A DNA stretch of 64,000 nucleotides. It comes from Actinomyces sp. oral taxon 897 (GTDB lineage: Bacteria > Actinomycetota > Actinomycetes > Actinomycetales > Actinomycetaceae). This document shows positions 4,823-62,721 of this stretch, piece after piece. Below the pieces are notes generated by a model. That model had not been told where the DNA came from and ran no database searches. It saw only the letters and a list, made by a program, of their open reading frames with translations. Position 1 is the stretch's first letter, and every line of letters begins with the position of its first letter. Made by a program: the position numbers and the translations under genes. The stretch covers positions 806,001-870,000 of the forward strand of contig NZ_CP027236.1 of the NCBI RefSeq assembly GCF_002999235.1, written 5' to 3'.

Positions 4823-4838
4823 CCCCTCCCCTTCAGCA

Positions 4839-4923
4839 ACGTGCCTTAGTCATGGGCGACGTACCTTAGTCACCGGTGACGTACTCTAAGGGTACGTTCC
4901 CGGTGACTAAAGCACGTCCCCGG
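4839..4923. repeat. family A palindromic repeat, copy 1
   Basis: Two 20-bp tandem units (ACGTGCCTTAGTCATGGGCG at 4839, ACGTACCTTAGTCACCGGTG at 4859) face inverted copies. TTAGTCACCGG (4866-4876) is the exact reverse complement of 4900-4910, and the stem continues inward through GACGTAC/GTACGTT, giving a hairpin of about 18 pairs. It fills the gap between two convergent genes (YbjN gene and tyrA), so a bidirectional terminator role is possible. Related copies lie at 57364-57452 and 58277-58401. Confidence 0.75.
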
Positions 4924-7789: not shown

Positions 7790-8316
7790 CACCCGCCCTG
7801 ACACGTCCCGGGGAGCCAGCAGGGAGCACCCCGCACGCCACCTGTCCGCAACCCCCACCACCCGCCCGACCGGGCCACCGACCTCACACCCGTCACCTGA
7901 TCTTGACATACTTCTGCCATCCCATCGACTTGACCCTCGCGCTGAAGCCATCAAACGTCATCCACCTTCCCCGGCCAGGAACAGCACCGCCTCCGACCCC
8001 ACCACCACGAGAACACGCGGCGGGCCCCAGCTCATCCCACGAGGACCTCCTCCCCGCGACCAGGCCCTGCCCTGCTCACGCTGTACGGCGCGCAGCGGAA
8101 CATTTTGTGCACAGGGTAACCAATTGCGCACAAAGTGACCTAGATTCGTTACCTTCTGCGCAAAACGTTACCCTGTGCACAAAATGTTCCGCCCTGTACA
8201 AAGTACGGCATACCTCGAAGGCGACCTTCTGGGTACTACCCTGTGCCGTCCTCCGACTGGTTGAGCTTGCCGACGGTAGGCAACCAGCATGGGGCGTTAA
8301 AGGGGTAGGCAGAGGC
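7790..8316. other. gene-free gap of 527 bases between the hypothetical region and scpB
   Basis: Base composition is clearly less GC-rich than the rest of the window, and no frame shows coding bias. It contains the family C repeat (8095-8192) and, nearer scpB, an imperfect hairpin with CTGGTTG at 8257-8263 facing CAACCAG at 8281-8287 that could end scpB transcription. The minus-strand promoter of the hypothetical region/rluB/tyrA probably lies here, but I could not fix its -35 and -10 elements. Confidence 0.6.
8095..8192. repeat. family C inverted pair of tandem 19-bp repeats
   Basis: Two perfect 26-base inverted arms (8095-8120 and 8167-8192) enclose 46 bases. Each arm is the outer of two tandem 19-bp units: on the right, GTTACCTTCTGCGCAAAAC (8148-8166) is followed directly by GTTACCCTGTGCACAAAAT (8167-8185), with 15 of 19 bases shared. 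On the left the mirrored units are 8102-8120 and 8121-8139. The arrangement is therefore two units facing two units, with an AT-richer composition than its surroundings. No other copy is visible in the window. Confidence 0.8.
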
Positions 8317-37923: not shown

Positions 37924-37979
37924 CCGTTCTCACGACGAACAAGTACCGTTCTCACGAGCAATAAGTACCGTTCTCGCGG
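37924..37979. repeat. family B solo array (two 22-bp units)
   Basis: Two tandem 22-bp units, 37932-37953 and 37954-37975, each containing AAGTACCGTTCTC, flanked by a partial unit (CCGTTCTC, 37924-37931) and GCG. The last unit has AATAAGTACC where the other has AACAAGTACC, the same rule as in the arms at 61392-62071. It lies in the convergent gap before the DUF1540 stop, in the orientation of the right arm of the large element, with no inverted partner nearby. Confidence 0.8.
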
Positions 37980-57363: not shown

Positions 57364-57452
57364 GGGGACGTACCTTGGTCACCGGGGACGTACCTTAGAG
57401 GTACGTCCCCGTCGGCTAAGGTACGTCGTCGCTGGCTAGGGCACGTCGCCGG
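57364..57452. repeat. family A palindromic repeat, copy 2
   Basis: Two direct units (GACGTACCTTGGTCACCGGG at 57367, repeated from 57387) run into inverted ones. The centre is a perfect hairpin: GGGGACGTACCT (57384-57395), loop TAG, AGGTACGTCCCC (57399-57410). It lies between convergent stops (lipoprotein gene and rpe). Confidence 0.85.
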
Positions 57453-58164: not shown

Positions 58165-58276
58165 GGGCTCTTTCCTGGTGGTGGGTGTCGGGACGGTGGT
58201 ACGGGCCGGCGCGCGGTGGCCGGTCGGCGGGTGGCCGGTGCGGACTGTCGGGCAAGCGGCAGGTGGGCAGCTGGTG

Positions 58277-58401
58277 GCGACGTACCTTGGTCACCGGGGA
58301 CGTACGTACCCGAGGACGTGCGCGAGGTGATGCGCCTGCGACGTACCTTGGTCACCGGGGACGTACCTCTAAGGTACGTCCCCGCCGACTAAGGCACGTT
58401 A
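58277..58401. repeat. family A palindromic repeat, copy 3 (with internal duplication)
   Basis: It has the same plan as copy 2, with hairpin GGGGACGTACCT (58357-58368), loop CTA, AGGTACGTCCCC (58372-58383). In addition the left part is duplicated: 29 bases starting GCGACGTACCTTGGTCACCG at 58277 recur at 58338. It lies between the rsmB stop and the rpe start, within a tandem minus-strand pair. Confidence 0.85.
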
Positions 58402-58421: not shown

Positions 58422-60347
58422 TCAGTGACGGCACAGCAGCGCGCAGAACATGGCGTCGGTACCGTCCAGGTGGGGCCAGAGCTGGAGCATCTGCTGCTCT
58501 GCCCCCGCCGGCGGCACCGGTGACACCCGGGCGGCCACCTCACCGGCGTGGAGAGGACTCGCCTCCACCCCCTTCCTGGCCAGGGCGGCCAGGGTGTCCT
58601 TGACCACGAGGCTGGTCTCCAGCAGGTGCGGGGAGCAGGTGGTGTAGGCCACTACCCCCCCGGGGCGTACGGCGAGCAGGGCGCTGGCCAGGAGGTCGCG
58701 CTGGAGGGCGGCGAGCTCGGTGACGTCACGGGGCTGACGGCGCCACCGGGCCTCCGGGCGCCGCCGCAACGAGCCCAGGCCCGAGCAGGGCACGTCCACG
58801 AGCACCCGGTCGTAGGCCCCCGGCTCCTGGCGTCCCGCCTCCCGGCCGTCGGCGCAGCGGACCTCCACGACCCGCTCGGGCAGGGCCCGTACGGCGGCGC
58901 GCACCAGGTCGCAGCGGTGAGGGGCGACCTCGTTGGCTACCAGGGTGGCGCCGCGCTGGGCGGCACGGGCCCCCAGCAGGGCCGCCTTGCCCCCGGGCCC
59001 GGCGCACAGGTCCAGCCAGCGCTCGTCACGCCCTTGAAGGGGGGCCTCGGAGAGCACCAGGGCCACGAGCTGGCTGCCCTCGTCCTCCACGCCCGCACGT
59101 GAGTCGCGCACCGCGGCGATACGCACCGGGTCCCCCCCTGCCAGGACGACGGCGCAGGGGCTGCGCTCCCCCCGCCGGGGCTCCTGGTGGCTGGCGTCCC
59201 AGGCGGCGGAGGCCAGCTCCTCGGGGGTGACCAGGCCCGGACGGGCGCACAGGGCCACCTCGGGCTCGGTGTTGTCGGCCTCCAGGAGGGCCTGGAGCTC
59301 ACCGACGTCCCGCCCGTTGCCCAGGAGGGCCTGGCGCATGGCCCTGACCACCCAGGCCGGGTGGGAGTGGGTCCGGGCCAGGGCGCTCACCTCGTCGGGG
59401 GCGGCGGAGGCCACCCGCTCCAGCCACGACTCCAGGTCACCCTGGGCCACCCTCCGCAGGACGGCGTTGACGAAGGTGGCGGCGCCCCGGCCGGCGGCGT
59501 AGGAGGCCAGGTCCACGGTGGTGCTCACCGCGGCGTGGGTGGGCACGCGCATGCCCAGGAGCTGGTGGACCCCCAGGCGCAGCACGTCCAGGACCAGGGC
59601 GTCGACCTGGTCCAGGGGCCGGTTCGAGCACATGGCGATCACGGCGTCGTAGCGGCCCTGGAGGCGCAGCGTGCCGTAGGTCAGGGAGGTGGTGAAGGCG
59701 GCGTCACGCCGACCCGCCCGCGCCTGGTCCAGCATGGGCGGCAGGACCAGGTTGGCGTAGGCGTCGTCCTGACGGACCCGCTCCAGGGCCCTGAGGGCCA
59801 GGATCCGGGGGGTGTCGGGCTCACCGGGGCGCCCCGGGGCACGCCCCGACGAGGTACGGCCGCGGTCCCGGCCGTCATACCGGCCCTGGCCGCGGCCCCA
59901 GTGGCCCAGCTGGCTACGACCGTCGCCACCGGGGCGATCCCCGTCCCGGCTGCCGCCGTCGTAGCGATTCCGGCCCCGGTCATCGTCCTGGTCCCGGCCG
60001 CGGGCCCAGTGGCCGTCACCATGACCTGTGCCGTCGTAGTGGCCGGGGCGACCCCGACCCTGGTCCCAGCGTTCCCCGTTATAGCGGTCCTGGCTGCGGC
60101 CGCCACCGTCGTATCGGCCGCGGCCCCGGTCCCTGTCGTCGTAGCCTCCCTGGTCCTGGCGGCCACTGTCCCGACGGCTCTCACCGCGGTCCCGGCCCTC
60201 ATCCCGGTCCCGGCCCCGGCCTCCATGGCCCAGCTGGCTACGACCGTCGCCACCGGGGCGGTCCCCGTCCCGGCTGCCGCCGTCGTAGCGGCCCCGGTCC
60301 CGGCCGTCGTCCCGGTCCCGGCCCTGCCAGCCGTGGCTGCCGGTCAT
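58422..60347 (-). CDS. rsmB: 16S rRNA m5C967 methyltransferase RsmB with long disordered N-terminus
   Basis: SAM-dependent cytosine-5 methyltransferase of 16S rRNA, 641 residues. From residue 181 it is a normal RsmB: NusB-like helical domain (RILALRALERVRQDDAYANLVLP), then a Rossmann methyltransferase with LDLCAGPGGKAALLGARA, the Cys motif DVPCSGLGSLRRRPEARWR near 518 and catalytic AYTTCSPHLLET near 566. Residues 1-176 are an added Arg/Gly/Asp/Tyr-rich tract holding a 22-residue near-exact duplication (20-41 and 127-148, RYDGGSRDGDRPGGDGRSQL...). Such RGG/RDG tracts bind RNA in other proteins. The stop of fmt overlaps its ATG by four bases (ATGA). Confidence 0.92.
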   Translation of the reverse strand: MTGSHGWQGRDRDDGRDRGRYDGGSRDGDRPGGDGRSQLGHGGRGRDRDEGRDRGESRRDSGRQDQGGYDDRDRGRGRYDGGGRSQDRYNGERWDQGRGRPGHYDGTGHGDGHWARGRDQDDDRGRNRYDGGSRDGDRPGGDGRSQLGHWGRGQGRYDGRDRGRTSSGRAPGRPGEPDTPRILALRALERVRQDDAYANLVLPPMLDQARAGRRDAAFTTSLTYGTLRLQGRYDAVIAMCSNRPLDQVDALVLDVLRLGVHQLLGMRVPTHAAVSTTVDLASYAAGRGAATFVNAVLRRVAQGDLESWLERVASAAPDEVSALARTHSHPAWVVRAMRQALLGNGRDVGELQALLEADNTEPEVALCARPGLVTPEELASAAWDASHQEPRRGERSPCAVVLAGGDPVRIAAVRDSRAGVEDEGSQLVALVLSEAPLQGRDERWLDLCAGPGGKAALLGARAAQRGATLVANEVAPHRCDLVRAAVRALPERVVEVRCADGREAGRQEPGAYDRVLVDVPCSGLGSLRRRPEARWRRQPRDVTELAALQRDLLASALLAVRPGGVVAYTTCSPHLLETSLVVKDTLAALARKGVEASPLHAGEVAARVSPVPPAGAEQQMLQLWPHLDGTDAMFCALLCRH

Positions 60348-61306
60348 GAGCGCTCCTCCCCGGTGGTGGCGTCATCCTGGCCCAGCCGCTCTCCCGGCCC
60401 GGGGCGCGCGCCCCGGGCCCAGGCGTCGGCCGCCATCCAGGAGCGTCCGGCCGGGGCGACCTGCCCCAGGCGCAGGGCGTGCGAGCCGGTCCCCACCAGG
60501 ACCTCGTGGCGGGAGGGGCGCAGCTCGCCGGGGGCCAGGTCGGTGACCTCGGGGACCAGGGCCAAGGGGCCTAGGCGCAGGCGGACGCCGCGCCAGGTGG
60601 TGTGCGCCCCCGGGGAGGGGGTGACGCCCCGGACCCGCCGTTCCAGCGCGAGGGCCGGGTCCTGCCACCGCAGCAGGCCGTCGGCGGTGGTGAGCAGCGG
60701 GGCGAGGGTGGCCGCGGCGTCGTCCTGGGTCTCGGGACGCACGCTGCCGTCGGCGACGGTCCCCAGGGTGGTCAGGAGCAGACCCGCACCGGCGGCGGCC
60801 AGGCGCTCCAGGAGGTCACCGCTGGTGTCGGTGGAGCGGACGGCCTCGGTCAGGCGCGCGTAGACGGGACCGGTGTCCAGGCCCTCCTCAAGCTTGAACA
60901 CGCAGGCCCCGGTGACGTCGTCGCCCGCGATAAGGGCCCGCTGGACGGGGGCGGCCCCGCGCCAGGCGGGCAGGAGGGAGAAGTGCAGGTTGAGCCAGCC
61001 GTGGACAGGCACCTCCAGCAGGCTGACGGGCACGATCCGCCCGTAGGCCACGACGACGGCGACGTCGGCCTCCAGGGAGCGGATCCAGTCCTGGACCTCC
61101 ACCTGGCGCAGGGTGGCGGGGGTGCGTACCTCGAGCCCGGCCGGGCGGGCCAGGGCGGCCACGGGTGAGGGGTGGAGGCCCCGGCCCCGGCCCCGGCGCG
61201 CGTCGGCCCGGGTCAGGACCCCTACCACCTCGTGCTCCGGGCTGTCCATGAGGGCCGTCAGGGCGGGTAGGGCGACCTCAGGGGTCCCGGCGAAGAGCAC
61301 ACGCAT
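60344..61306 (-). CDS. fmt: methionyl-tRNA formyltransferase
   Basis: Formylates initiator Met-tRNA; 320 residues. The N-terminal formyltransferase fold has VLFAGTPEVALPALTAL, VVVAYGRIVPVSLLEVP, the catalytic set NLHFSLLPAWRGAAPVQRALIAGDDVTG (Asn, His, Asp) and VFKLEEGLDTGPV. The C-terminal OB-like domain starts near 205. The ATG at 61306 was chosen because the family begins MRVLFAGTPE. The gene usually follows def; def is absent here. The large family B element lies directly upstream, so its promoter is near or within the left repeat arm. Confidence 0.95.
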   Translation of the reverse strand: MRVLFAGTPEVALPALTALMDSPEHEVVGVLTRADARRGRGRGLHPSPVAALARPAGLEVRTPATLRQVEVQDWIRSLEADVAVVVAYGRIVPVSLLEVPVHGWLNLHFSLLPAWRGAAPVQRALIAGDDVTGACVFKLEEGLDTGPVYARLTEAVRSTDTSGDLLERLAAAGAGLLLTTLGTVADGSVRPETQDDAAATLAPLLTTADGLLRWQDPALALERRVRGVTPSPGAHTTWRGVRLRLGPLALVPEVTDLAPGELRPSRHEVLVGTGSHALRLGQVAPAGRSWMAADAWARGARPGPGERLGQDDATTGEERS

Positions 61307-61391
61307 ACCCGTCAGTCTACGGGGACCGGCAGGACAGCACGACGTCACCCCCGCCGCGCCCCCTCGCCCCTCGCGCTCCCCTCGCGCTCCC

Positions 61392-62071
61392 CTCGCGAGA
61401 ACGGTACTTATTCGCCGTGAGAACGGTACTTGTTGCTCGTGAGAACGGTACTTGTTCCTCGTGAGAACGGGGGCCGCTCCGGTGGCCCGGGTGTAGACGC
61501 CCCCTGTCGCAGGGTCGCCTGCCGTGAGGACGGGGTTGCCCAGAGGGCTCGCCGGGGTCTGTGACGTCTCCGACAGGCATGGGAATCCATGCGATCTTCC
61601 GATTGCTCGCGGGTCGCCTGACGATCTCGGGATCCTGCTTTGACGCAGCCTGGCTTAAGGTCGGACCCACTCCGCCCTACCTTTTGTAGCAATGAATGCC
61701 CACGCAGGTCAGGGGCATGACCTCGGCGCGGCCAAGGACGGCCCCGGCGGAGATCGCGCTGCGTCGGGCCCCGATGCGGCCGAGGACGGCCCCGGCCCTG
61801 AGCCTCAGACTGCGTCAAAAGCAGGTCTGCGGACCGACAGTTTTGCACGAGTTCTTGCAGATCGCACAGGTTCTTGTGTCGGCTCCCCACCTGCCCCTGA
61901 GATACCTGCGTGATTCCGTAGGCCCCGACGGAGCCTCCTACAAGAACTCGTGCAGTCCAGAGGTCGCACCACGTGACCGTTCCGCGACTCGCCCGTTCTC
62001 ACGAGGAACAAGTACCGTTCTCACGAGGAACAAGTACCGTTCTCACGGCGAATAAGTACCGTTCTCGCGAG
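61392..62071. repeat. 680-bp non-coding element bounded by 80-bp inverted family B arrays
   Basis: The left arm 61392-61471 and right arm 61992-62071 are reverse complements with one mismatch in 80. Each arm is CTCGC, three tandem 22-bp units beginning GAGAACGGTACTTRTT, and a partial fourth. Left units are 61397-61418, 61419-61440 and 61441-61462; right units are 62001-62022, 62023-62044 and 62045-62066. The 520 internal bases have no coding bias and hold two more dyads: CCTGCTTTGACGCAG (61634-61648) with 61810-61825 (one extra A), and TGCACGAGTTCTTG (61844-61857) with 61941-61954. A 21-base direct repeat (61728 and 61776, one mismatch) is also present. It fills the gap between fmt and a HAD gene. 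Confidence 0.85.
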
Positions 62072-62082
62072 AGGGAGGTGGG

Positions 62083-62721
62083 TCAGGGGCGCGGGAGGAG
62101 GCCGCGCTCAATGAGGTCGGCCCGCAGGCGGCCGGCGCCGGTGAAGTGGTGAGTCCGGAGCCCCACCGCCCGGGCGCCCCTGATATTGGCCGGTGAGTCG
62201 TCCACGAAGAGGGTGAAGGCGGCTATGAGGCCGTAGCGCTCCAGGAGCCGGCGGAAGATCACCGGTGAGGGCTTGACCTGGCGCTCCTGCCCGGAGACCA
62301 TCAGGCCGCGAAAGCGCTCCAGCTGGGGCACCATGGCGCGGGCGGCCGGGAAGGTGGGGGCGTCGAAGTTGCTCAGCAGGTACAGGGGGACCCCGGCGGC
62401 CAGGAGGTCGTCCACGACGCCCAGGGTCCCGGGTACGGGACCGGTCAGGGAGTCAGGGAAGTTCGCCCGGTAGGTGGACAGGATCTCCACCCAGTCGGGA
62501 CGCCGGGGGTGGGTGGCCGCCAGGTCCGCGAGAATGTCCTCAAACGGCTCACCCAGGTCGCTACGGGCATTGAGGGCGTCAAAGTCCGCGCCCTGGCAGA
62601 ACTCGTCCCAGTCGGCCTGGCTCACCCGCCCGGCCACGGCCGCCATGGCCTCCCAGGCCACCAGGACGTTGCCGTAGTCCAGGACGACGGCACTCACCCG
62701 TGTATCCGTGGTAGGGCTCAT
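62083..62721 (-). CDS. HAD-IA family phosphatase
   Basis: Haloacid dehalogenase-type hydrolase, 212 residues, resembling the YihX-like alpha-glucose-1-phosphatase group. Motif I is VVLDYGNVLVAWE (nucleophile Asp; the second Asp of the usual DxD is Gly here, as in the DYGN subgroup), motif II is LYLLSNFD, motif III Lys lies in ERQVKPSPVIFRRLLERYG, and motif IV is TLFVDDSPANIRGARAVGLRTHHF. The cap (about 30-95) is the helical C1 type. The substrate is not determined. ATG 62721. Its stop lies 11 bases from the right arm of the family B element. Confidence 0.88.
   Translation of the reverse strand: MSPTTDTRVSAVVLDYGNVLVAWEAMAAVAGRVSQADWDEFCQGADFDALNARSDLGEPFEDILADLAATHPRRPDWVEILSTYRANFPDSLTGPVPGTLGVVDDLLAAGVPLYLLSNFDAPTFPAARAMVPQLERFRGLMVSGQERQVKPSPVIFRRLLERYGLIAAFTLFVDDSPANIRGARAVGLRTHHFTGAGRLRADLIERGLLPRP

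Follow-up and report, generated by a model that had tools for sequence, protein, structure and literature searches.

Two facing members of a high-copy intergenic 22-bp repeat family between a HAD-like hydrolase gene and fmt in Actinomyces sp. oral taxon 897

Several kinds of bacterial repeat resemble the 22-bp arrays that are the subject of this report. REP/BIME sequences are high-copy intergenic repeats that often stand as inverted pairs near gene ends, the MIRU-VNTR loci of mycobacteria are dispersed intergenic actinobacterial repeats with a locus-specific number of units, and the ends of Tn7, Mu and Tn5053 carry several short sites in tandem, inverted with respect to each other. Each likeness has its limits. 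REP sequences are palindromes, in contrast to the rigid tandem 22-bp units seen here, and we detected no Y1_Tnp protein in this genome of the sort found in REP/BIME-RAYT systems; MIRUs are longer, at roughly 40-100 bp; and Tn7, Mu and Tn5053 differ in that here we find no rve-domain protein, no defined terminus and mostly gaps with a single array. The nearest described system that we found is BrickBuilt of Porphyromonas gingivalis, a MITE with a 23-nt minisatellite inside it (Klein et al. 2015, PMC4596501). According to that paper, BrickBuilt is like the present arrays in having spacerless tandem direct repeats (of 23 nt) in variable number, in being always intergenic and in containing no transposase remnant, and its repeats are described there as being without matches outside the species (PMC4596501). 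It differs in copy number, with 19 copies in ATCC 33277 compared to an estimated ~124 arrays here, and in possessing a leader and a tail with terminal inverted repeats closest to ISPg1/ISPg9 of the IS5 family (PMC4596501), whereas in our case the outer flanks of the arrays have only short C-rich matches in common, most cores are unshared and the arrays often face each other.

The locus that led to this family is a 680-bp stretch, 61392-62071 in the window (the whole stretch of 64,000 nucleotides that was analysed), made up of two inverted arrays of 3.5 units each around 520 bp. We propose, with moderate confidence, that it represents two facing members of a high-copy intergenic 22-bp array family, that the whole was inserted between the HAD gene and fmt, and that the family is MITE-like with units recognised by a protein. 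The features of the locus and of the one further array in the window are as follows.

60344..61306, minus strand: fmt-like gene, methionyl-tRNA formyltransferase, flanking and outside the element (Pfam Formyl_trans_N, Formyl_trans_C)
61320..61393, plus strand: outer C-rich, G-poor tract before the left array, including tandem CCCCTCGCGCT and lying within DNA absent from relatives
61394..61471, plus strand: left array, three 22-bp units CGY-GAGAACGGTACTTRTT-NNY, a closing half unit CGTGAGAACGG, then G (cores at 61397, 61419 and 61441; half unit ending at 61470)
61472..61991, no strand: filler (core), a mosaic whose pieces also occur at array loci elsewhere in the genome
61844..61954, no strand: small inverted element within the filler, TGCACGAGTTCTTGCAG at 61844-61860 and a near-complement at 61938-61954
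61992..62069, minus strand: right array, mirrored and facing the left array, three 22-bp units, a half unit and G (cores at 62007-62022, 62029-62044 and 62051-62066, plus the half unit)
62070..62082, minus strand: short C-rich stretch on the outer side of the right array, which runs up to the HAD stop codon
62083..62751, minus strand: HAD-like hydrolase open frame, flanking and outside the element, start codon uncertain (Pfam Hydrolase, HAD_2)
37924..37979, minus strand: further array of the 22-bp family, two units and a half, lying between two called genes that converge (cores at 37938-37975)

The first-pass annotation had described two near-identical inverted arrays of three units and a partial one, and this holds: the 80-bp arms are 99% identical, with one mismatch. 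At 85%, the inverted similarity extends beyond the arms to 61356-62107, part of which reflects the C-rich nature of both outer flanks. With the 16-bp core and at most 3 mismatches, 8 occurrences are found in the 64-kb window, compared to 0.05 expected from shuffles. The 520 bp between the arrays is without a recognised gene; the four interior open frames tested have no Pfam match and, as had been noted at first pass, none is a transposase, and there is no Rfam match at gathering scores in the interior, Rfam returning only four tRNAs for the whole window.

Across the 3.25-Mb genome the unit core (16 bp, at most 2 mismatches) occurs in 426 copies and the reversed pattern once, which at 3.4 units per array gives the estimate of ~124 arrays. 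The details of the unit come from an 854-kb sample, the window plus 40 stretches picked partly around known matches and therefore not used for density, in which 65 match groups were found and one (1179552, with 3 mismatches and inside a gene) was discarded as chance. The remaining 64 arrays hold 220 units, 63 of them having two to seven units, and every internal spacing is exactly 22 bp (156/156). Seventeen of the 22 positions are nearly invariant, with 10 deviations in 3740 cells, and variation is limited to one C/T, one A/G and a three-base linker. There is almost no decay series, as 216 of 221 matches to the degenerate core are exact, a count that covers units at up to 3 mismatches and that more divergent units would escape. 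A closing half unit ends 50 of the 64 arrays, and in 38 of these a G comes next. CRISPR arrays, in which unique spacers of about 30 bp separate the repeats, were considered and rejected, since the units here are contiguous, with a 3-nt variable linker and no unique spacers.

In 6 comparisons of homologous DNA adjoining arrays at different loci, aligned positions agree at 76-81%. Set against the few deviations within the units, this shows that the arrays are held constant while their neighbours drift, by selection or homogenisation. The 99.7% constancy of the fixed positions, right beside varying linkers, offers a footprint of the factor involved, be it one that recognises the unit or one that copies it. 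The near-identity of the two arms at 61392-62071 is not special by itself: the 854-kb sample has 496 pairs of 3-unit arrays, of which 8 show one difference or none, so the gene conversion that had been offered as one explanation of the matching arms is not needed. Among 15 hand-listed facing pairs it is the sole pair that close, the other 14 differing at 3-10 sites.

Where the arrays sit was assessed with a simple home-made codon-usage gene caller, the gap classes and counts of which are approximate: for gaps of at least 20 bp between called genes, arrays occupy 22 of 79 where the genes converge, 24 of 305 where they are co-directional and 3 of 84 where they diverge. Three of the 65 match groups were called inside genes, namely 1179552, 494983 with a 24-bp overlap with a gene end, and 2199633 in a low-scoring call. 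The genes flanking arrays have no common theme and form a housekeeping mix (20 proteins scanned). A single array is present in 36 of the 49 occupied gaps, and in the 13 gaps with two arrays the pair faces inward 11 times (8/8 convergent, 3/5 co-directional).

These inward pairs, the inverted ends with several 22-bp sites and the gained DNA revealed by empty sites in relatives (see below) are what would speak for a two-ended transposon of the Tn7, Mu or Tn5053 kind, with several transposase sites at each end and mobilised in trans, and the first-pass annotation had likened the arms to Tn7-like or Mu-like ends. A two-ended transposon does not explain the predominance of single arrays, and the distance from array to border is not fixed, nor is there a clear target duplication. 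Beside the large repeat load of the genome (completeness 100), no protein of the rve family (PF00665; Tn7, Mu and relatives), the Y1_Tnp family (PF01797, RAYT) or the reverse transcriptase family RVT_1 (PF00078) was detected, at 0 matches each, with 6, 5 and 3 of 14 control genomes being positive, respectively. The likeness to Tn7 or Mu ends finds no counterpart in a detected rve-domain protein, and we consider this already disfavoured reading very unlikely. Nor was any transposase domain found in 10 proteins encoded in or beside five array-bounded stretches, 4 of these proteins having no Pfam match at all. The first-pass annotation had also foreseen that arms occurring singly would make the pair a chance neighbourhood and that arms with neither a common core nor an empty site would not form a discrete element; most occupied gaps do hold one array, yet empty sites exist, and the truth lies between the outcomes that were foreseen.

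The inward pairs, together with the partial dyad symmetry of AAC-GGTACTT-RTT in a pairing map, would also suit inverted sites of a site-specific recombinase, with a 7-bp centre GGTACTT between imperfect half sites and an invertible core. Tandem repetition and single arrays are left unexplained by such sites, and no inversion was seen in the one genome; we regard this as highly improbable.

The position of the arrays relative to genes raises a stronger alternative, which is that they are host 3'-end elements, either directional tandem terminators or Rho-type sites, composed of a C-rich tract, repeated CCGU-GAGA-ACGG hairpins and a U-rich tail. The upstream side of the array is a gene 3' end in 46 of 62 classified arrays, convergent gaps are enriched, and a terminator scan flagged two of the window's units compared to 0.5 expected. 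The arrays are preceded by a C-rich, G-poor tract that fades over ~40 nt (over 63 arrays, the 10 nt closest to the array have C 0.62 and G 0.14), and in the hairpin the outer stem pair, linker Y-G8, is C-G or U-G in all 156 units tested, with a mean folding z of -1.87 relative to shuffles on the sense strand. However, a directional element would not leave the one-array co-directional gaps free of orientation bias, with 11 sense and 8 antisense (p = 0.65), and one of the two arrays at HAD-fmt is directed away from the start of fmt. The C-rich tract is equally pronounced, with the same composition, in the 46 arrays that have a gene 3' end upstream and in the 17 that have a 5' end there. The single hairpins are weak, at -4.4 to 0 kcal/mol, and fail to form in C variants, the Y0-A5 pair being U-A in only 105 of 220 units, and folding of the antisense strand is almost as strong (mean z -1.51; 53 arrays for both strands). 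As a terminator covers the gene-end bias but not the absent orientation bias, we favour the MITE-like, protein-recognised family and consider a host 3'-end element possible, if rather unlikely. The structured RNA with a huge stem that had been suggested at first pass is likewise not favoured, given that the two strands fold about equally and that one of the two variable stem positions is unpaired in about half of the units, the other pairing in all.

Two other accounts of the array surroundings were tried and rejected. Gene ends in general do not have the C-rich tract, array-free ones showing C 0.39 and G 0.375 (331 ends). The site at 1590476 had suggested that arrays sit within the loop of a hairpin that was already there, but the two sides showed no excess of complementarity over 63 arrays (mean z 0.09). 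The tract has no fixed end, so the termini of the array family are undefined.

Comparison with relatives indicates that the locus has grown. The HAD gene and fmt are 776 bp apart here, whereas in 28 of the 29 relatives that were fetched fmt follows the final HAD codon by 13-160 bp, two of the 28 distances (L072, L075) resting on hand-extrapolated HAD ends and the 29th relative having its HAD locus cut by a contig end; in the related genome G015 the gap is 10 bp. The region 61392-62071 is thus DNA gained relative to other species. Empty sites, which the first-pass annotation had proposed to look for in sister strains, exist in these relatives and in G015; as for a target-site duplication, the only candidate at the HAD-fmt locus is a low-complexity CCC/CCCC and none is clean. 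For the fmt and HAD genes themselves, DNA identity to G015 is 76% and 71%.

Among 131 gene pairs with orthologues in G015, arrays are present here in 9 of the gaps, and 7 of these are 95-1042 bp longer here, with no array core seen in G015 at those places; the remaining two are coaA, with an array in both genomes, and one gap that is longer in G015. Among the 122 array-free gaps, with a median difference of -2 bp, 19 exceed their G015 counterparts by more than 80 bp, which gives Fisher p = 0.00016 for the excess of longer gaps at arrays, with a threshold chosen after seeing the data. Beyond HAD-fmt this comparison is with G015 alone, so that gain here is not told from loss in G015. The corresponding comparison with two further genomes, G200 and G100, covered 103 and 84 gene pairs and contained one shared array gap, HAD-fmt.

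At coaA the array common to both genomes has 3.5 units here and 1.5 in G015, with nearly identical flanks, and 3 kb of G015 align at this locus at 94%. A unit number that differs at an orthologous site is a feature of VNTRs and minisatellites, and to judge by this one site, compared between species, unit number appears to change in place. Similarity to G015 is uneven, with stretches of 90-98% around coaA (G015 C1 546069-551815 compared to own C1 1601001-1606738).

The extra DNA usually runs past the array on its inner side. On our reading of the sequences, 6 of the 7 gaps with gained DNA relative to G015 have their array or arrays next to the border and directed towards the additional DNA; the seventh, 1590476, has hardly any filler. 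This arrangement, and a near-invariant core with a variable linker, would be consistent with an array-writing enzyme that adds units in templated fashion to DNA ends or gaps, giving arrays that point away from the native border. The lack of a detected RVT_1 protein and of a template, as well as linker variation that speaks against a simple template, makes such an enzyme hardly probable at all. More broadly, the arrays could stem from a system not yet described, one that places 22-bp units at the borders of genes, from native to gained DNA, and keeps 17 positions nearly error-free over an estimated ~124 arrays as the adjoining sequence drifts, in a genome without detected rve, HUH Y1 transposase or reverse transcriptase, which we think improbable.

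The filler between arrays is not a constant partner of the repeats. With 40 of 223 candidates scored, the 10 listed matches into the 520-bp interior from elsewhere in the genome are all at array loci, at differing distances and in both orientations. Within 500 bp beyond the array, 69 of 1953 possible pairs match (63 arrays, excluding pairs less than 2.5 kb apart), and therefore most arrays have no common core. Of the proposal that the locus is a non-autonomous mobile element, the gain of DNA relative to relatives is supported, and a discrete unit with a common core is not, as cores differ and arm spacing varies.

A third small family was observed in the filler, in which the 17-bp TGCACGAGTTCTTGCAG lies ~90-130 bp from its complement. 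In the window the distance is 94 bp (61844-61954, near the right array), and such pairs recur at approximately 2184112-2184260, 2671124-2671272 and 2759123-2759231 of the same genome (C1). At up to 2 mismatches there are 11 matches (control 1), but at 3 mismatches there are 14 compared to 14 in the control; 10 of the 14 matches lie within 500 bp of a 22-bp array. Also observed were two 1.8-kb stretches, 83.5% identical and each enclosed by facing 22-bp arrays, at C1 1184717-1186680 and 3148457-3150625. Each holds a gene without assigned function, with a DUF6318 gene called in the second, and they occupy unrelated loci, one beside an IclR-type regulator gene and the other beside an SMC-like gene according to our reading of the sequence.

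The MITE-like family that we favour meets both support and difficulty. The arrays are dispersed, their period is rigid and their unit nearly invariant, DNA has been gained at HAD-fmt and the unit number is different at coaA. Like MITEs, they are multi-copy, short and intergenic, contain no transposase and have empty sites in relatives. Against insertion of a MITE-like element stand the absence of a clean target duplication, the undefined termini, the one comparable gap in nine that is longer in G015 and the growth of some array-free gaps, and a search for a conserved terminus outside the arrays found none. We suggest that the family may have spread as non-autonomous, MITE-like insertions, of which the array would be the recognised part, offering sites about two helical turns apart so that a sequence-specific protein could bind along one face. 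Such putative protein recognition would account for array sequence being kept compared to the drifting filler. The number of units may then have been altered in place, the units recombining or slipping against each other. Insertion and unit gain or loss can be tested directly at the empty sites and at the site with 3.5 compared to 1.5 units, and if the bound protein is a chromosome-organising factor or a transcription factor, the family would represent a mobile element that has become a set of sites spread across the genome.

Outside this genome the family is nearly absent from what was searched. A pattern search of 186 distinct other genomes of the family or order (38 plus 150, two in both) matched G015 alone, once, the pattern used for the 150 demanding more of the second unit, such that it could miss a 1.5-unit array. 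In collections from which the own or near genomes may be left out, the 680 bp had no match among plasmids and phages in a distant mode, viral contigs gave 0 matches and genome contigs gave 0 matches to a two-unit query. A single 19-bp unit found 8 stretches of genome contigs in distant taxa, 4 of them in Psychrobacter, which is about chance by our own estimate and was set aside. In 400 kb of the own sample there are 85 tandem arrays, 22 of them of period 22; 400 kb each of G200 and G100 have 25 and 17 tandem arrays (period 15-30), with none of period 22 among the first 12 listed for each. A literature search by title and start of abstract, in which the repeat letters were not used as a query, found no such repeat. 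With 426 core copies compared to a single match in 186 other genomes, the family is a sharp case of lineage-specific spread.

The window contains other repeats as well. A second family has 20-bp units ACGTACCTTRGTCACCGG, some of them in tandem, at 4838-4917, 57367-57446, 58276-58305 and 58340-58399, and plus and minus copies stand 41 bp apart at six places. Allowing at most 3 mismatches, the 854-kb sample has 20 matches to it, compared to 1 in the control, and there is none in 580 kb of G015 or in 400 kb each of G200 and G100. Finally, a 45-nt inverted repeat, 87% complementary and with 8 nt separating its arms, lies at 8095-8192.
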